This document shows positions 488 to 16,896 of a stretch of 28,096 bases of DNA, piece after piece; positions within the stretch are counted from its first letter, which is position 1, and each line of letters starts with the position of its first letter. A program made the translations under genes and the position numbers. The stretch is from positions 1-28,096 of the IMG/VR virus record IMGVR_UViG_3300025417_000071, one strand, 5' to 3'. The notes below the pieces were generated by a model. That model was given only the letters and a program-made list of their open reading frames with translations. It was not told where the DNA came from and did no database searches. Source of the stretch: a virus.

Positions 488-795
488 CAGATTCCCTTCA
501 GTTCACACAGCATGGTAGAACGCTCTGGCTCTGGCAGGCTTGCAGCAAACTTCTCAGCCTTCCTGATGCGCTTCTTCAGTTCCTCCACCAGCTCATCAGC
601 ATTCTCCATGCGCTTCTTCAGGTGAGCCACGTTCTCATCCAAGTCATTGATTTGAGCCCGAAGCACATTGATGGTGCTGTTCTTGAAGTCCAGCAGTTCC
701 TCCTGCATCTTCATGATGCTATTGGAGGTGCATGATGGGCAGACCTGCTCACTGCTCCATCCATGTGGGCAGTCTGGTGTGTTGCGGATGCTCAT
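487..795 (-). CDS. Coiled-coil protein with N-terminal Cys/His cluster (102 aa)
   Basis: The N-terminus carries CPHGW-SSEQ-VCPSC (Cys9, His11, Cys19, Cys22), a plausible zinc site. From about residue 28 to 90 the protein is a charged heptad-rich helix (ELLDFKNS..., HLKKRMENADELVEELKKR), so it probably forms a coiled-coil oligomer. Its start overlaps the end of the upstream methyltransferase (ATGA), so the two are likely co-translated. Unlike that methyltransferase it is CpG-poor, matching the bulk of the window. Role unknown. Confidence 0.75.
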   Translation of the reverse strand: MSIRNTPDCPHGWSSEQVCPSCTSNSIMKMQEELLDFKNSTINVLRAQINDLDENVAHLKKRMENADELVEELKKRIRKAEKFAASLPEPERSTMLCELKGI

Positions 796-1655
796 TTTGT
801 CTCCACTTTGTTTAGCATTGGTGCGTCTTTCGTTATGCGCTCTCGGGCGATTTCTGCGTAATCGGCGTTCAGCTCAGTCCCCACGAAGTTGCGCCCATAT
901 CGGTTTGCCACGACTGCCACTGTGCCAGAGCCCGTGAACGGATCTAGCACCGTGTCTCCCTCGGCGCTACCGGCCAGGACACAGGGTTCGACCAGTGCCT
1001 CTGGCATCACAGCGAAGTGTGCGCCCTTGAATGGTTTTGTCGTGATAGTCCAGACATCACGCTTGTTGCGTCCCGTTGGGTTCACGAAGCGCTCTCCCAT
1101 TTGGTCGGTGTGGATACCTGCTCCGCCCATACTGGCGTTTTTGGTGCTGGGCCTATCGCTGTGGAAAGCATACTTTGAGCGAGCCAGACTTACATCTGAA
1201 ACAGGCTCTTTGATTGCTTCGTGGTCGTAGTAGTAGCGGGGTGACTTGGTGAGCAGGAATAGATACTCGTGGCTCTTGGTCGGGCGGTCAGTCACGCTCT
1301 CTGGCATCGGGTTGGGCTTTGCCCAGATAATGTCTGAGCGCAGATACCAGCCGTCAGCCTGGAGAGCTAACGCTACTCGCCACGGGATGCCGAGCAGTTG
1401 TTTTTCCTTTGCGAAACTATCGCCTAAGTTCAGCCACAGCGTTCCGTCATCGGCTAATACCCGACAGACTTCACGGAATAGGGCGACCATTTCGGCAACG
1501 TAAGCGTCGGGCGTTTCTTCCAGCCCGATTTGCCCGTCCACTCCATAGTCTCGAAGCCCGAAGTAGGGCGGTGACGTGACACAGGTGCGAGCCGAGCCTG
1601 CTGGCAGCTCTGCTAGGCGCTGGCGAGCGTCTCCTATCAGGATGAGTGAGTTCAT
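792..1655 (-). CDS. Site-specific DNA methyltransferase, SPPY (beta-type) class
   Basis: S-adenosylmethionine-dependent DNA methyltransferase with catalytic motif IV TSPPYFGLRDYG (residues 27-38) ahead of motif I LDPFTGSGT (237-245) and the following VGTELNADYAEIARERI. That order, with the target-recognition region between them, is the beta-group arrangement. SPPY is typical of N4-cytosine enzymes but also occurs in some N6-adenine ones, so the methylated base is uncertain. At 287 aa it is full length. No restriction partner is visible, so protecting phage DNA from host enzymes is the likely role (inference). It is far richer in CpG than its neighbours (20 in 961-1260 against none in 1741-2040), which suggests recent acquisition. 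Its start overlaps the exonuclease stop (ATGA). Confidence 0.92.
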   Translation of the reverse strand: MNSLILIGDARQRLAELPAGSARTCVTSPPYFGLRDYGVDGQIGLEETPDAYVAEMVALFREVCRVLADDGTLWLNLGDSFAKEKQLLGIPWRVALALQADGWYLRSDIIWAKPNPMPESVTDRPTKSHEYLFLLTKSPRYYYDHEAIKEPVSDVSLARSKYAFHSDRPSTKNASMGGAGIHTDQMGERFVNPTGRNKRDVWTITTKPFKGAHFAVMPEALVEPCVLAGSAEGDTVLDPFTGSGTVAVVANRYGRNFVGTELNADYAEIARERITKDAPMLNKVETK

Positions 1656-2674
1656 TCTGCCACCAGCCGGAGAACTCGTGCGCCAGGCTTGACTTTGGTG
1701 AACTGGGCTGCCAAGTCTGGGTGAGCCTCCTTGAAAGCCTTAGCATCAAAGGTTTCCCCAGCCTTGTTGGACTTGTAGGTGTAGAGGATTTCACCCTCAT
1801 AGGTCACAGCTTGTGCTGATCCAATGACCTGCTCAATCTGAGCCCTCAGAGTCTTCAGTTCTTCCTCAGCAGTCTCCACCACTTTTTTCTGGGCTTTGTA
1901 TTCCTCATACAGACCCAGCACAATTTCATCAGCCTCAATGACCTCATCAGTGCTTTCTGGATAAAGGGTCTTTAGAGCATCCAAGTCATTGCCCAGTGCT
2001 TCTGGCTCAATGTCTGACTTGACCTGCACCCAAAACTCAGACTCAACCTGCTCCAAGTTCAGCAGTTCCTCATCAGTGAAGGTCACATCTCTGGTGACAA
2101 TCCCCTGCCCACCCACTAGGCAGACAAAGGTGACATCCTTAATTCCAGTCACACAGGAATAGTGCTTACCTTGACTGAGATATCCAGCCGGAACACTGTT
2201 GTCTGCCCAAGCCTGCCCATTCCCACGACCTGACAGCCCAGTGGTCTTGACCTCCAAGATGCGCTCAATGTTTGCTGGTGGGAACTTGCCATCATGGTCA
2301 TTGACCTTGCCCAGTTCCAGCCCATCAACATTGGCATCAGTCACACGGCAAATGAAGAAGTCCACATTTGCCAACTGCCACTCATATGCTCCCTGAAGCA
2401 GAACGGGCCAAGCCACCACAGCCAATCCTTGCTCAGCAATCATCTGGGCGTAGATTTCTGCCACTGGTCGCTCAAACGCCTGACCGAGCCTGGTGGCTTC
2501 ATTCCCCTTGAAGGTGTCCTCAACCCTTCCAGTCTTTTCCAGCCAAAGCTGAAGACGAGACTTATATGGGTTGATCCCTTCAATGGTTCCAGCATCTGAA
2601 CCACCAAAGCCCTTGCTTCTTGCTTCCAGCCATTCCTCATGGGTGAGGATGTCTGTTCTTGTCACTACTTTCAT
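1652..2674 (-). CDS. YqaJ-type viral exonuclease/recombinase
   Basis: A lambda-exonuclease/YqaJ-like PD-(D/E)XK nuclease of 340 aa. Family marks are RSKGFGGSDAG...INPYKS (residues 19-39), LWLEKTGR (43-50), LGQAFERPVAE (63-73), the metal-binding aspartate in ANVDFF (about Asp105), the EVKTT core (Glu141, Lys143) and a downstream Gln in GYLSQGKHY (Gln168). The C-terminal third is a helical, probably coiled-coil extension. Such enzymes resect double-stranded ends for phage recombination, normally with a single-strand annealing protein; the ERF-like gene at 9696 could be the partner. The ATG follows CTGAGGAGGGACA, a strong site shared with other operon-leading genes. Confidence 0.9.
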   Translation of the reverse strand: MKVVTRTDILTHEEWLEARSKGFGGSDAGTIEGINPYKSRLQLWLEKTGRVEDTFKGNEATRLGQAFERPVAEIYAQMIAEQGLAVVAWPVLLQGAYEWQLANVDFFICRVTDANVDGLELGKVNDHDGKFPPANIERILEVKTTGLSGRGNGQAWADNSVPAGYLSQGKHYSCVTGIKDVTFVCLVGGQGIVTRDVTFTDEELLNLEQVESEFWVQVKSDIEPEALGNDLDALKTLYPESTDEVIEADEIVLGLYEEYKAQKKVVETAEEELKTLRAQIEQVIGSAQAVTYEGEILYTYKSNKAGETFDAKAFKEAHPDLAAQFTKVKPGARVLRLVAE

Positions 2675-2730: not shown

Positions 2731-3071
2731 GTGGTTGCAACTCTGATACTTGCCAGAAGGCTTCTCAGCCCATCCAGCCTTGCTTGTGATGCTCTCAGGG
2801 CTTCCCTGCAAGTGGTCAGCCTGTTTTCTGAGATTTTGTAGGCGAGCAATTCTGCTTCAACCATGCTTTGGGCTCTGTCAGCCACTTCATCCACTGTGAG
2901 CTTCTCCTTGCTGAGAGCCCTCACCTGAAGTCTGGCTTTGGAATAGGCAGTCTTAAACTCCACCTCAAAGTGAGCTGCATCATCCCCTGCTTTGGCAATC
3001 TCCTCCACCAGTTCATCAATGCGCCTAAGACACTTTGCAATTCCCTCATGGACTGCTTCAACTGTGATCAT
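2727..3071 (-). CDS. Coiled-coil protein (114 aa), unknown function
   Basis: The frame is open upstream, but the likely start is the ATG at 3071 (MITVEAVHEG), overlapping the end of the methyltransferase C-terminal subunit by 14 bp. The protein is almost entirely charged helix with Ala and Leu heptads (IDELVEEIAKAGDDAAHF, AQSMVEAELLAYKI), so an elongated coiled coil is likely. No catalytic motif is visible. It lies between the C5-methyltransferase and the YqaJ exonuclease, which hints at DNA metabolism by association only. Confidence 0.75.
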   Translation of the reverse strand: MITVEAVHEGIAKCLRRIDELVEEIAKAGDDAAHFEVEFKTAYSKARLQVRALSKEKLTVDEVADRAQSMVEAELLAYKISENRLTTCREALRASQARLDGLRSLLASIRVATT

Positions 3072-3636
3072 TGTCAGCCTCCACCAGTCTTGCCATAATC
3101 CACTCCACCACAGGGACTGCCACAGCATTTCCCATCTGCTTGTATCTGGATGAGTCTGCCTGGTCAGTCAGTCCTTTTTTGTCATCAACCCTCTTGGCTG
3201 TCCAGTTGTCAGGAAACCCTTGCAACCTCTCACATTCCACTGGTGTCAAACGGCGCACTGTAGGTGGTGAAGCAATAAAGGTCTGAGCATGGTGGCTCTG
3301 GGGACTGGGTTGCATGGCATTCAATGCATTGCTCACTTTTAGTTCAGTTGCTGAGAAATTGTTAGCTTTGGCATCTTCCCTCACTGAGTAAGCCACCATT
3401 GGTGTGTTGTTGCCGCCGGTCCCCATAAAGGCTGACAGTGTTTGTGTTGTGTCACCTTGCACTCTTACCTCCCCACTTTGGTGGGCTTGGAAAATGATGA
3501 CTGTTGCTCTTGATTCACCTGTGTTGTCCATGATGTTAAGAGTCGGAATGGTGGCATTTTCAGACCAGACTTCTGCTGGAAGACTGCCATCAGCAAATCT
3601 CTTCCCTGATCTCACTGTCTTGACCCACCACGACAT
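3058..3636 (-). CDS. C5-cytosine methyltransferase, C-terminal part (TRD, motifs IX and X)
   Basis: This frame carries the missing C-terminal half of the methyltransferase upstream. Motif IX is RRLTPVECERLQGFPDNW (128-145) and motif X is SRYKQMGNAVAVPV (163-176). Residues 30-120 are target-recognition-like, with recurring 'TL.A....G....V' segments. It lies +1 relative to the N-terminal ORF and overlaps it by 47 bp. Its ATG at 3636 has its own ribosome site (AGAGAGGAACAGAGA-ATG), so it can be made as a separate subunit, as in the two-subunit M.AquI. Other readings are a +1 frameshift making one chain, or a recent indel or sequence error. It is CpG-poor, unlike the N-terminal part. Confidence 0.8.
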   Translation of the reverse strand: MSWWVKTVRSGKRFADGSLPAEVWSENATIPTLNIMDNTGESRATVIIFQAHQSGEVRVQGDTTQTLSAFMGTGGNNTPMVAYSVREDAKANNFSATELKVSNALNAMQPSPQSHHAQTFIASPPTVRRLTPVECERLQGFPDNWTAKRVDDKKGLTDQADSSRYKQMGNAVAVPVVEWIMARLVEADNDHS

Positions 3637-4351
3637 TCTCTGTTCCTCTCTTGTATTGAGTTGCGTTAAGAGTTTTCAGTTGTCCCTCTGTGTATCTGGC
3701 AAATCCTGTTTCACCGAACACATGAGAGCCTGCTCCAGTGTTGGTGGCAGACTTTTTCCTCTTCGGCTTGCCCTCTGCAAGATTCCCTTGCAGGCCTTCG
3801 CTGATAGCGAGTATTTCTGCAGATGTGTCCCCTCTGTCTCCAGCACATCCGACAATGAAGACTCTACGCCTACGCTGTGGGACTCCAAAGTATTGAGCAT
3901 CAAGCACTCTCCAGCTGATGCCGTACCCGAGTTCAGAAAGCGCCCCGACAACGGTTCCCATATCCCTTCCTCCGTTTGATGACAAAAGGCCAGGCACGTT
4001 CTCCAAGACGAGATATTTTGGCGATAACTCATCCACAAGTCGAACAATTTCCCAAAATAAACCGGAGCGTTGTCCGGCAAGACCGGCTCTTTTCCCCGCA
4101 ACCGAGAGGTCTTGGCAGGGGAAACCTCCTGTGATAATTCCTCTGTCTGGAACAAAGCCTGCTGTTCTGAGATCACTTCCACTCACTTTCATTACATCCT
4201 CAAAGTGTGTTGCTTTGGGGAACTGGTGCTGTAAAACGCCTCTGGCGTTCTTGTCGATTTCTACTGTTGCCACTACATCAATCCCATTCCTCTGCATGGC
4301 GAGGTCAAATCCACCCACACCTGCAAACAGGGAAACTGCTGTCAAGGTCAT
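3590..4351 (-). CDS. C5-cytosine methyltransferase, N-terminal part (motifs I-VIII)
   Basis: The SAM-binding and catalytic half of a Dcm-type DNA (cytosine-5) methyltransferase. Motif I is AVSLFAGVGGFDLA (5-18), motif IV GGFPCQDLSVAGKR with catalytic Cys79, motif VI VLENV (115-119) and motif VIII PQRRRRVF (158-165). The reading frame stops after 253 residues, inside the target-recognition region. Motifs IX and X follow in the overlapping +1 frame. The ATG at 4351 is chosen because it starts just before motif I and makes an ATGA overlap with the upstream micropeptide; the longer open frame upstream is non-coding. With 25 CpG in 3781-4320 against 5 in 3061-3600, its composition differs from its own C-terminal half. 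Confidence 0.88.
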   Translation of the reverse strand: MTLTAVSLFAGVGGFDLAMQRNGIDVVATVEIDKNARGVLQHQFPKATHFEDVMKVSGSDLRTAGFVPDRGIITGGFPCQDLSVAGKRAGLAGQRSGLFWEIVRLVDELSPKYLVLENVPGLLSSNGGRDMGTVVGALSELGYGISWRVLDAQYFGVPQRRRRVFIVGCAGDRGDTSAEILAISEGLQGNLAEGKPKRKKSATNTGAGSHVFGETGFARYTEGQLKTLNATQYKRGTENVVVGQDSEIREEIC

Positions 4352-7579: not shown

Positions 7580-8161
7580 CTACATCCCAGACATCCTCTG
7601 TCTCCTATATCTGGCACGCATGAAAGCATTGTGTGCATTTTTGCAGGCTTCACACTTCACCACTTGACCCACTGCTTTCCCACCACGCTTCTGCGCCCTG
7701 CGAGCCAGCATCTGATAAGCCTTCTCAGTCCCACAGTTTTGGTGGTCAGCCTCTGGATTCCATGTCTTGGTCAGTGGCTCCCCAATCAGGAAGATGCTGT
7801 GAGCCTGAACACATTCACTGCAGGAGAAGCCATTCTCTTGGCAATACCTGTATCCCTCTTCAGTGCCACAGGCTTTGTGTCTGTTCAGGGAAACATTCCT
7901 TCTGAGGCTGATTTTCTGCTCACGCCTCATCTGCTTTCTTTCCTTTGCAGTGGTTCCACCCCAGATGCCATACAACTCTGACTCCAGCCCAATTTGCAGG
8001 CATGGCTCTTGGTATGGGCATTCATAGCAGATGGCTTTTGCCATCTCCTTAATTGTGTGGAACTGTTCCATGACCTCATACAAGGGTCTCCCCCTGCCCT
8101 CTATGTCCTGCGGATAAAACAGGTCAGTCTTCCCTTTGCATGGTGGGTTGTGAAAAGTCAT
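7580..8161 (-). CDS. WhiB-family iron-sulfur regulator with two extra Cys repeats
   Basis: The N-terminal 75 residues have the WhiB pattern: Cys8, then Cys45, Cys48 and Cys54 in AICYECPYQEPC for a [4Fe-4S] cluster, and the GIWGGTTAKER turn (65-75). Ordinary WhiB proteins are about 80-130 aa; this one has 193. The extra part holds two matching units, CGTEEGY...CSECVQAH (98-121) and CGTEKAY...CEACKNAH (143-177), each with a CxxC pair, probably zinc-binding. WhiB proteins are actinobacterial transcription regulators, usually acting with sigma factors; phage versions may redirect host transcription or block superinfection. It overlaps the upstream membrane gene (ATGA). Confidence 0.9.
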   Translation of the reverse strand: MTFHNPPCKGKTDLFYPQDIEGRGRPLYEVMEQFHTIKEMAKAICYECPYQEPCLQIGLESELYGIWGGTTAKERKQMRREQKISLRRNVSLNRHKACGTEEGYRYCQENGFSCSECVQAHSIFLIGEPLTKTWNPEADHQNCGTEKAYQMLARRAQKRGGKAVGQVVKCEACKNAHNAFMRARYRRQRMSGM

Positions 8162-13883: not shown

Positions 13884-14581
13884 TGGTAGGTGGTTCCTCT
13901 CACGCTTGCGGAATATGCCGTTGATTCAACTGTTGCTTGATACTCAGTCCCCTTGACATGACCAGAATAGGCGGTTCCCTCAACTACTGCTTGATAAGTA
14001 GTCCCTCTGACATGGGCAGAGTAGAAGGTTCCTTCCACCACACCTGGTGATGGGTGGATTGCCCTGCCTGATGCAGACCCAGCAAATGCATAGGTTCCTG
14101 CACCATGAGCTGGGTAGAAATTTGTCCCAGTTCCACTCCCTGAGAATGAGCTAGTGGCAGAGCCAGTGGCAGACACTCTGGCAATTGCCACACCAGCAAA
14201 TGACCCAGTGGCAGAACCAGTCCCAGCAAGTGTGTAGGTTGCTGACCCAGTGGCTGAGAAGGAATAGGCTCCTGCAGCCTGAACCACCAAGTAGTCGGCA
14301 GTTGATGCTGCATACATTCCACTGAGCGCACCAGTGGCTGGATATACAGGGACACCAGTTGCAGAGCCCAAGAAGGAGCCTGCCAAGTTTCCTGTGGCCT
14401 CTAGGGTCGCAGTTCCTGCACCACTGAATGAGCCAGAGCCAGAGCCAGTGGCTGGGTAGATGACAGTGGCTGTGGCAGAACCAGAGAAGGAGCCAGTTAG
14501 TGATCCAGTGGCAGTGAACTGTGTCAGTCCTGCGTAGGCCTGCCCAAGATATGGTGCGCCTAGATAGTTTGCGCCCAGCAT
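13880..14581 (-). CDS. Low-complexity fibre-like protein with two kinds of repeats (233 aa)
   Basis: The N-terminus (MLGANYLGAPYLGQAYAGL) is followed by about eight loose repeats of 'ATGS-A/L-TGSF-S/A-GSAT' plus 'YPATG' between residues 24 and 180, rich in Gly, Ser, Thr and Ala. The last 52 residues form a second, tidy repeat (see 14038..13883). Such composition suits a fibrous or surface-exposed virion protein; phage proteins of this make-up are often neck, capsid or tail decorations. Reading-frame use is constant, so the repeats are not sequencing noise. Function unproven. Confidence 0.75.
   Translation of the reverse strand: MLGANYLGAPYLGQAYAGLTQFTATGSLTGSFSGSATATVIYPATGSGSGSFSGAGTATLEATGNLAGSFLGSATGVPVYPATGALSGMYAASTADYLVVQAAGAYSFSATGSATYTLAGTGSATGSFAGVAIARVSATGSATSSFSGSGTGTNFYPAHGAGTYAFAGSASGRAIHPSPGVVEGTFYSAHVRGTTYQAVVEGTAYSGHVKGTEYQATVESTAYSASVRGTTYQ
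13883..14038 (-). repeat. Three 18-residue repeats with alternating charge
   Basis: Codes for nine-residue units of the form V-(E/R/K)-G-T-x-Y-(S/Q)-x-x. The second residue alternates E, R, E, K, E, R, and the seventh alternates S, Q, S, Q, S, Q. The true period is therefore 18 residues (54 nt), three copies, the last truncated by two residues. Third-base differences between copies indicate an old or selected repeat rather than a fresh duplication. Confidence 0.85.
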
Positions 14582-14590
14582 TGGGTCTCC

Positions 14591-15370
14591 TTACAGAAGT
14601 TCTAGGAAGTTGGTGCTGTTCGTGGTCGTGGCAGGGTTGATGACCAGACCGAGTGCAACCGAGATGTTGATGCCGGTAGTCGCTGCCGGTGACTGCCAGA
14701 AGCCCAGTGCGCCACCACTTGTTGTTTGCGGATAGGTGGCGATTTGGTAGGTGATGGCTGACTGACGTGAGCCGGTGACGTAGGTAGCCACTGTGTCATT
14801 GTTTGGCAGGTTGTAGGGAGAAGTTCCCCAGCCACCACCAGAAGGTGGCGTGGTTGAGAACGTAGGTGCGCCAGTCATACCGAGAAGAAGTTGCCCAGGC
14901 TGCCAGTAGTAGTTGAAGCCTTGCGCCTGACTGGTGGCGTTGGCGATTGCGGTTCCTTGTCCGTGTGGCGTTCCGTTGATTGCGATTGGGTTTGTTGTCG
15001 AGCATCCGGAGAACGTCGCTGTGCAGAAGCCGCCCGTTGTTGTTGGCACTCCGCTAAGCGTCACCGAGGTTGTGCCGGTGGTGGTCACGTTGTAGCCCAG
15101 CCAAGCGGAGAAGCCGTTGTTGGCGTTTGGTGCGCCGTTGCCGTTGGCCGTCAGACCGACCCACGTTGCTCCAGCTCCACTGACAGTGTAGGCAGGCAGG
15201 TATTTGTTCGCACCAGTCTGAGACCAGGCAGTGGTGTTGGTTGAGGAGACCACGATGAGGATGAGGTCACCTGGCAATGTTGAAAGCACAGGGACAGTTG
15301 TGGAGATTGACGAAGTCGTTGTCCCACCTCGGTAAGCAATAGCCACTACGCCACCGCCACCAATCGCCAC
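14591..15370 (-). CDS. Fibre-associated structural protein (259 aa)
   Basis: A Gly/Thr/Ser-rich, all-beta protein starting MAIGGGGVVAIAYRGG and containing STTVPVLSTLPGDLILIVVSS, TWVGLTANGNGAPN and GQLLLGMTGAPTFS. The layout ('P.GDLL.....S....W') resembles phage structural proteins encoded next to tail fibres. It overlaps the fibre gene by 25 bp and shares its CpG-rich composition, so both probably arrived together. It may be part of the fibre tip or an attached adhesin. No enzymatic motif was found. Confidence 0.7.
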   Translation of the reverse strand: MAIGGGGVVAIAYRGGTTTSSISTTVPVLSTLPGDLILIVVSSTNTTAWSQTGANKYLPAYTVSGAGATWVGLTANGNGAPNANNGFSAWLGYNVTTTGTTSVTLSGVPTTTGGFCTATFSGCSTTNPIAINGTPHGQGTAIANATSQAQGFNYYWQPGQLLLGMTGAPTFSTTPPSGGGWGTSPYNLPNNDTVATYVTGSRQSAITYQIATYPQTTSGGALGFWQSPAATTGINISVALGLVINPATTTNSTNFLELL

Positions 15371-16896
15371 TTGGAGGTTTCAGAGTCCCAGACAAATCCC
15401 ACGTCAAGACGAGCCGTTCCTGCGGTTGCCACTGGGAGAAGAACTCCACCAGATGACTCGAACATTGCTCCCCACGTCAGACCGATAGAAGTTGTGCCGG
15501 TCATTGAGATCCGCAAGGTGTCGCCGTCCACGGGCGTTCCTGAGCTTGTGAACTGCACCGGCGTTGTGGTCTGGCTGGTGACGTGATACACATCAACATT
15601 GTCGGTGTTGATTGCGTAGGACGAAGCGTTGGCCGTCGTCGAGGTCACTCGCTTGGTGATGCGCTTGTTTGTCAGAGTGTCGGTGGTGGCACGTCCGACC
15701 AGCGTGTCCGTCGAGGTCGGCAGGGTCAGCGTTCCGGAGTTCACAATGCTGGAGAAGCTGGGAGTTGTAAGACTTGGTGATGTTGAAAGGACATTGGAGC
15801 CAGAGCCAGTTGATGTGGTCACACCAGTGCCACCTGCAGTCACAGGGAGAACGTTTGCCATCTGCGCCAAGTCAGTCGTGACGAAAGCGTACCAAGTGCC
15901 TCCGGTGCCAGTTCCGCTGTAGGTGAACGTGTAGGCGGCGTTCACAGTCACTGCGTAGTTGGCCTTGATTATCTGGCCTGTTGCCGATGTGGTGGCGTTG
16001 GCGCTGAGTGTAATCGTGGATGCGCCTGAGTTGATTGACACGATGGTTGTGCCAGCAGGTGTGTAGGTTCCCGATACTTCCTGACCAACGTAGAGGTTGC
16101 TCGTCGAACTTACGCTGGTCAGCGTTGGGGACGAGGCTGTGGTCGTTGCGGTGAATGAGGGAGCGTAGACGTTGCCCGACACCGAAACGTTGTTCAGCCC
16201 ACCGTTGATGTAGACGGTGTTTAGTGAGAGGTTCTTGATTTGGTAGGTCGAGCCGTTGACGGGGTTCAAAGGAAGCGTGATGACCTGATACTGAGTCGAG
16301 CCGTTGAAGATGGTGAACTCACCAACTCCAGCCGTCGCAGTTGACGAGCGAGTGACCAGCGAGTTCGGGACTACGTTCGTCCAAGTGCCGGGAGTGCCGC
16401 CGGTAATACAGACCCAGAACGTGCCGGTCTGGTCGGCCACTACGTCGCCAGCCTGAAACGTGCCGGACGTAGGAGCACCAGCAGCGGTGACACCGACGAG
16501 GCGAGTCGTTCCGGCAGTAGCACCAGTGAGACCAGTGACCTTGATGTCTGGGACTGATACTTCACCAGTGAAGGTTGCACCAGACAGGGGAGCCAACTGG
16601 CTCAGGAGGTTGGCATCTATGGTCTGAGCAATCTGATAACCAGCAGTGATGCTCTGGGCTGTGGTTCCATACTGAGCCCGAGTGATCGTGAAGGTGTCGG
16701 TTGCCACAGCAGTGACCCTGACAATCTCAGCATTGGTGCTGAGTGGCTGGACACCAGCAGGCCAAATGGTCGCATCAAATGGAGCCGTTGGGAACAATGC
16801 ACCCTGCCCAGCAGTCACCACAAGGGAGGTTCCAGATGTGGCAGGTGATGGTGGTGTTGCCACCAGTGAATAGGCAAAGTTCTTCAGGGCATCCAT
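15346..16896 (-). CDS. Tail fibre protein (516 aa)
   Basis: The N-terminal ~120 residues (MDALKNFAYSLVATPPSPATSG, then a TIWPAGVQPLST / TRAQYGTTAQ segment) form the likely tail-attachment region. A second region carries a short collagen-free beta module. The C-terminal half includes the fibre signature GGTGVTTSTGSGSNVLS, PSLTTPSFSSIV, GTLTLPTSTDTLVGR and DTLTNKR, and ends with a small domain finishing TSKWRLVAVA. From about 16540 downstream it is very CpG-rich (55 CpG in 15901-16500), while the N-terminal part is CpG-poor (about 5 in 360 nt). This is the mosaic expected when a receptor-binding tip is swapped. It probably decides host range. Confidence 0.82.
   Translation of the reverse strand: MDALKNFAYSLVATPPSPATSGTSLVVTAGQGALFPTAPFDATIWPAGVQPLSTNAEIVRVTAVATDTFTITRAQYGTTAQSITAGYQIAQTIDANLLSQLAPLSGATFTGEVSVPDIKVTGLTGATAGTTRLVGVTAAGAPTSGTFQAGDVVADQTGTFWVCITGGTPGTWTNVVPNSLVTRSSTATAGVGEFTIFNGSTQYQVITLPLNPVNGSTYQIKNLSLNTVYINGGLNNVSVSGNVYAPSFTATTTASSPTLTSVSSTSNLYVGQEVSGTYTPAGTTIVSINSGASTITLSANATTSATGQIIKANYAVTVNAAYTFTYSGTGTGGTWYAFVTTDLAQMANVLPVTAGGTGVTTSTGSGSNVLSTSPSLTTPSFSSIVNSGTLTLPTSTDTLVGRATTDTLTNKRITKRVTSTTANASSYAINTDNVDVYHVTSQTTTPVQFTSSGTPVDGDTLRISMTGTTSIGLTWGAMFESSGGVLLPVATAGTARLDVGFVWDSETSKWRLVAVA

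Follow-up and report, generated by a model that had tools for sequence, protein, structure and literature searches.

We have analyzed a 28,096-bp virus record of IMG/VR (IMGVR_UViG_3300025417_000071, hereafter the window), the sequence of a lake-water phage, in which two overlapping open reading frames (ORFs) correspond to successive parts of a cytosine-C5 DNA methyltransferase (C5-MTase). The first, hereafter the N-subunit, contains the sequences FAGVGGFD (motif I), GGFPCQD (motif IV), LENVPG (motif VI) and QRRRRVFIVG (motif VIII), and the second, or C-subunit, continues the series, so that motifs I, IV (PCQ), VI (ENV), VIII (QxRxR), IX and X are all found, in order, across the two ORFs (table 1). 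PF00145 matches the N-subunit over its positions 2-168 of 324 (187 bits) and the C-subunit over positions 198-322 of 324 (52 bits), in both cases above the cut-off; since the two halves match one Pfam family in order and without overlap, they point to one two-part enzyme. The N-subunit is also matched by TIGR00675 and has M.HhaI as its best PDB relative by sequence (E 6e-27, residues 4-171), and several short PHROG families of 210-236 positions, named DNA methyltransferase, match the C half. The C-subunit begins with MSWWVKTVRSG, a type of N-terminus common to its split relatives. An earlier reading made from the letters alone (hereafter the sequence-only reading) had given ORF coordinates, motif positions and an overlap that ORF translation, Pfam and motif location showed to be exact, and had credited the second ORF with an ATG and a ribosome-site-like sequence of its own, both of which are present.

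Table 1. Features of the methyltransferase locus, of its neighbors and of related loci (modules assigned with hidden Markov models, HMMs)
Feature	Position	Strand	Description
N-subunit, 253 aa	3590..4351	-	C5-MTase motifs I-VIII and TL..V module A
C-subunit, 192 aa	3058..3636	-	modules P, C and D, then motifs IX-X; own ATG
Overlap of the two ORFs, 47 nt	3590..3636	-	C-subunit in the +1 frame of the N-subunit
Shine-Dalgarno-like sequence, AGAGAGGA	3644..3651	-	7 nt before the C-subunit ATG (3636), within N-subunit codons
Motif IX region, VRRLTPVECERLQGFP	3211..3258	-	in C-subunit; Pfam match
Motif X region, YKQMGNAVAVPVV	3106..3144	-	in C-subunit; Pfam match
Module A, VFGETGFARYTEGQLKTLNATQYKRGTENVVV	3626..3721	-	module HMM; recognition-like unit in N-subunit
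Module P, TVRSGKRFADGSLPAEVWSENATIPTLNIMDNTGESRATVIIF	3490..3618	-	module HMM
Module C, QAHQSGEVRVQGDTTQTLSAFMGTGGNNTPMVA	3391..3489	-	module HMM
Module D, YSVREDAKANNFSATELKVSNALNAMQPSPQSHHAQTFIA	3271..3390	-	module HMM
YqaJ-like exonuclease gene	1652..2674	-	neighbor, outside the enzyme; PF09588, 1.1e-18; clock for CpG decay
Second DNA methyltransferase, N4/N6 type	792-1655	-	PF01555; in CpG-rich island
Poly-G tracts in modules B and G			in L028/L029, L008, L026, L062, L099, L101, L136 and L333

Two scans of viral sequences retrieved 147 loci with both halves of the enzyme, of which 111 were left after removal of duplicates; the set comprises the best 80 of each scan by similarity to the query halves, and the share of split loci in it is not an unbiased rate. 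The split homologues that the sequence-only reading had proposed to look for in related phages proved to be the majority, namely 90 of the 111 non-redundant viral relatives, the other 21 having a single ORF. Such recurrence in dozens of environmental phages argues against a broken gene and for a real two-part enzyme. In a phylogeny built from 103 catalytic cores, the split and single labels are clustered, with at least seven changes, four of them forced by well-supported branches, which indicates that the split is old and has undergone several gains or losses. Bacterial relatives are mostly of the single-ORF form: leaving out phage records, 56 of 80 genome loci are intact, 13 are split and 11 have no recognized tail nearby. 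In three Bacillales genomes of different genera (L283, L284 and L285), a split C5-MTase occurs at identical coordinates and with identical scores, which suggests a mobile copy.

The same arrangement is found in the cultured mycobacteriophage Lucky2013, in which gp113 and gp114 overlap by 35 nt in +1 relation and gp114 (L163, 2306-2701), annotated as hypothetical, constitutes the second part, with motifs IX-X, of the methyltransferase whose first part is gp113. Other Omegavirus mycobacteriophages have related C5-MTase parts in adjacent ORFs (NihilNomen 123/124, Bombitas 109/110); these pairs, that of Lucky2013 included, differ from the window in having a core identity of ~50-68% and varied junctions, and Thibault looks disrupted. 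Alma gp83/gp82 is another phage pair, the C part of which was missed by the tail model used here. Public genomes already contain split phage versions as unremarked gene pairs; a partial literature search yielded general or unrelated articles and no description of a split phage C5-MTase family, which is absent from PMC3706429 and PMC11855218.

Both ORFs are under purifying selection, with conservation at the protein level. Compared with L333, the closest relative outside the population of the window, the core has a nonsynonymous divergence (dN) of 0.087 and a synonymous divergence (dS) of 0.71, and the tail has corresponding proportions of differences (pN and pS) of 0.11 and 0.78. Within the population of the window, two contigs can be aligned without gaps, L003 over 6.8 kb with 15 substitutions and L004 over 7.6 kb with 29. 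All these changes lie outside 3058-4351; the junction of both contigs is identical to that of the window, and the sequences are distinct though perhaps not independent samples.

A read-through of both ORFs, with TGCT taken as one residue (430 aa), was folded together with 64 relatives. The fused model has a predicted template-modeling score (pTM) of 0.66, and most of the core and of the motif IX-X tail lies above 90 in predicted local distance difference test (pLDDT); its best PDB match in Foldseek is M.HhaI, with a TM-score of 0.60-0.67 by target. The model, being of a single fused chain, supports the view that the C-subunit would complete the C5-MTase fold, M.HhaI and M.HaeIII being the nearest solved structures by sequence and fold; they differ from the window enzyme in having one chain and one recognition domain.

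The two ORFs thus very probably encode one C5-MTase made of two polypeptides of the M.AquI type, the layout anticipated by the sequence-only reading and now well supported by comparative evidence, namely split relatives, a conserved start and the same junction elsewhere. In M.AquI of Agmenellum quadruplicatum, motifs I-VIII and part of the variable region reside in one subunit and the rest of this region with motifs IX-X in a smaller one, and detached fragments of other C5-MTases are known to complement each other (PMC3404938). The window displays the same division of motifs, the comparison being with the description in that article and not with the sequence of M.AquI, but it differs in being phage-encoded, in distributing several TL..V modules over the two ORFs and in the many junction types of its relatives; no endonuclease was recognized adjoining the window methyltransferase. 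M.EcoHK31I is likewise one C5-MTase from two polypeptides, but its small subunit contains motif IX alone, motif X residing in the large subunit (PMC3404938); this layout is ruled out for the window, where both motifs are in the second ORF.

In the mechanism we propose, the N-subunit would supply the S-adenosylmethionine site, the PCQ nucleophile and the ENV motif, and the majority of recognition modules, together with motifs IX-X, would come from the C-subunit. Translation of the second of the overlapping ORFs would begin at an ATG and ribosome site of its own, probably coupled to translation of the first, and the two products would join non-covalently to form an M.HhaI-like enzyme. Its recognition array would consist of approximately four TL..V modules of 30-40 residues, of the kind found in multispecific phage methyltransferases; given this type of array, the enzyme probably protects phage DNA from restriction at one site at least.

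Repeated TL..V segments had been noticed by the sequence-only reading in the recognition part, and they are indeed found in both ORFs: one unit in the N-subunit, two clear ones in the C-subunit and a longer fourth without the exact TL.A signature. The signature TLx[A/G/R/S/T/Q/N] occurs 398 times in the variable regions of the family, ~2.2-fold the mean of shuffled sequences (179, maximum 219). With module HMMs seeded by eye from family sequences, 16 modules form 70 distinct orders among 108 enzymes, and the first module of the C-subunit is B or P in 78 of 87; since modules C and O, E and F, and B and P are alike, these counts are approximate. The array of the window is A / P-C-D, and that of the single-ORF relative L085 is P-O-D, near the C-subunit array of the window but joined directly to the core. 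The TL..V repeats thus come from a shared, shuffled pool of modules. The multispecific C5-MTases of temperate Bacillus phages, such as MtbP of SPbeta and its kin, have tandem recognition modules in their variable region; MtbP is a single chain. MtbP is a multispecific enzyme, and family modules E and F match its variable region (residues 345-372, independent E-values 8e-8 and 7e-8); modules A, P, C and D of the window gave no significant match to it with the module HMMs. Considering the shuffled pool together with the two module types that match MtbP, more than one target is plausible, and the window enzyme may plausibly have several specificities.

The change of composition between the two halves, another observation of the sequence-only reading, is real: 25 CpG lie in 3781-4330 and 9 in 3061-3780 (observed/expected ratio, o/e, 0.72 vs 0.21), and CpG-type codon choices amount to 28/97 in the N-subunit vs 6/67 in the C-subunit (Fisher P = 0.0018). 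Over the window as a whole, CpG o/e is 0.35, TpG 1.52 and CpA 1.58, with islands at ~600-1800, 3700-4200 and 14400-16500 being spared, while the relatives of its capsid protein have a CpG o/e of ~1.07 and a GC content of 0.60, L170 being intermediate (0.76, GC 0.56). At four-fold sites compared with L170, C has changed to T in 63-68% of the cases before G and in 7-9% before other bases, transversions being hardly raised, and the change of NCG to NCA amounts to 31-37% vs 0-3%; such a spectrum would be expected from deamination of methylated CpG. The lineage of the window (relatives L169, L170 and L333) has undergone a recent, genome-wide decay of CpG to TpG or CpA, and it is from this loss that the contrast between the N- and C-subunits arises. 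The neighboring YqaJ gene shows an excess of CpG loss on the branches to L333 (15/47 vs 7/77) and to the window (20/27 vs 6/63), both of which carry a split methyltransferase, and no excess in comparisons of relatives without a recognized methyltransferase (2/47 vs 6/80 and 3/47 vs 7/66); as far as close relatives go, the decay is confined to the two methyltransferase-bearing lineages. Among relatives represented by long contigs, such as G009 (38.0 kb) and G015 (36.7 kb), PF00145 has no match. Only a single contrast between lineages is involved, and host methylation is as good an explanation of the decay as the phage's own methyltransferase, because CpG-normal phages carry the same module types as the window. 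A signature of one target motif was rejected, all NCGN contexts being depleted without any motif emerging. One capsid relative, L234, has the opposite bias (CpG o/e 1.60, TpG 0.45).

From the contrast in composition, the sequence-only reading had considered that the halves might have different origins or that the catalytic part had been replaced. Different origins are not supported by the nearest relatives, which are the same phages for both parts (L005-L009 for the N-subunit, L007 and L006 for the C tail). That the catalytic part was replaced, or is often exchanged, is compatible with the lower synonymous divergence of the core and its slower loss of CpG. In each of the 14 pairs examined, the core shows a lower level of synonymous difference than the tail (the gap being smallest in L007-L008, 0.33 vs 0.37), as it does in the comparison with L333, so that, with moderate confidence, we consider the core to be exchanged often across the family and possibly recently here; a hidden overlapping gene as the cause of the low divergence was rejected, the +1 frame of the window having 7 stops and shuffled sequences 6.8. 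That the enzyme of the window is itself a mosaic produced by recent recombination, which would be compatible with its two-subunit nature, is a serious possibility falling just short of an even chance. To the codon and synonymous asymmetries can be added that 20 of the 23 core CpGs are common to the CpG-normal L006; yet the two ends agree in their nearest relatives, the clade is not rejected for the tail (approximately unbiased test, p = 0.35), the CpG excess of core over tail is a habit of the family (medians 0.96 vs 0.78), the same synonymous asymmetry exists between relatives, and the core is only a little less diverged from L333 at synonymous sites than the YqaJ gene (0.71 vs 1.04).

Some relatives have poly-G tracts (table 1). 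The GG residues of module B are encoded by GGGGGG in 44/76 cases vs 27/632 elsewhere, and frame breaks are present in 7/31 loci with G runs of at least seven and in 0/45 with shorter runs (P = 0.0012, kinship ignored); in L333 itself the N ORF ends early, at ten consecutive G. These tracts suggest candidate phase variation, or else homopolymer errors of assembly. We tentatively consider, as rather unlikely, that the C5-MTases of environmental phages form a combinatorial and switchable specificity system in which a catalytic subunit with exchangeable modules is accompanied by a specificity/tail subunit, translated separately and having a module array of its own, that the poly-G tract of many members would toggle on and off; the window has no such contingency tract.

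How the C-subunit is produced can be evaluated from the junctions of the split relatives. It starts inside the N ORF in the +1 frame in 55 loci, with an overlap of 14-53 nt (median 29), overlaps the N stop by 1-4 nt, mostly as TAATG, in five, follows an in-frame stop and a gap in five, and lies beyond a gap in another frame in three, two of which look like spurious anchors. Regardless of the junction type, the C-subunit usually begins with M-(L/S)-W-(F/W)-x-K followed by RRAQ or RSG. A start codon lies at most 10 codons upstream of the conserved W-F/W-x-K anchor in 66 of 67 alignable split loci, with 25.0 expected, a count that is descriptive and not a probability because the sequences are related; the start is ATG in 52 of the 68 split loci where it could be assigned. 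Because the same kind of start is found at TAATG and stop-plus-gap junctions, frameshifting is not needed, and the variety of junctions fits better with independent starts than with programmed frameshifting. These comparisons favor independent initiation of the C-subunit, probably coupled to translation of the N-subunit, and short gene overlaps are enriched among the subunits of heteromeric complexes (PMC10666635).

Other data weigh against two separately initiated, assembling subunits. No conserved C start is present in 22 of the 90 split loci, several of which look like poly-G frameshifts; coupled genes typically overlap by 1-4 nt, less than the 47 nt found here; the Shine-Dalgarno duplex of this locus (-7.6 kcal/mol) compares with a mean of -5.8 for synonymous shuffles (p 0.30), and over 60 loci the excess is weak (P = 0.028, kinship ignored); and the variable region of the fused model is unreliable, with pLDDT <50 over ~186-359 and contacts between modules and subunits unplaced. 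Programmed +1 frameshifting in the overlap, which would yield a full-length chain alone or beside a short N product, is nonetheless improbable. The +1 relation does dominate (70 of 90 split loci), most loci have an open C frame that extends upstream beyond the start, and 21 relatives are single-chain, but the overlap sequences come from unrelated modules and vary in length, the start codon is near-universal, and TAATG, gapped and in-frame-stop junctions share the C start. Moreover, the commonest heptamer in N phase, GTGGTTC (31/55), can be accounted for by coding in two frames and does not occur at the junction of the window, and no slippery site, canonical or shared among split loci, was found at a fixed place of the overlap, structured stimulators not having been searched.

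A pseudogene broken by a recent inactivating frameshift is very improbable: some relatives have frame breaks, particularly at poly-G tracts, but the catalytic motifs of the window are all intact, both parts are under purifying selection, and highly diverged phages share the split and the conserved start of the second ORF. Least probable of all is an indel at 3590-3640 introduced by sequencing or assembly, for even if our evidence consists of assembled sequence, the junction is identical in two other contigs with single-nucleotide differences of their own, most relatives are split, and the window has no homopolymer of at least eight G or C.

Natural two-subunit C5-MTases such as M.AquI and M.EcoHK31I have been described as rare exceptions. 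If the two-subunit interpretation is true, this layout is the routine one in a large viral family, modules being present in both subunits. Engineering would then gain split methyltransferases of natural origin, the change of restriction protection in phages through module exchange would have a testable model, and a cultured phage, Lucky2013, would serve for the tests. Automated annotation can leave the second subunit labeled as hypothetical.

Elsewhere in the window, the second methyltransferase of table 1 is probably a recent arrival; most L004 substitutions relative to the window lie at 760-1061, in and just past the 3' part of this gene. The CpG-rich island at 14400-16500 covers two tail-like ORFs and was possibly acquired recently. 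The ORF at 8161..7580 may be WhiB-like. Several palindromes are rare in the window (GTAC 2 vs 43 expected, CGCG 2 vs 23, CCATGG 0 vs 10, GTGCAC 0 vs 6.5), an avoidance which suggests restriction pressure.
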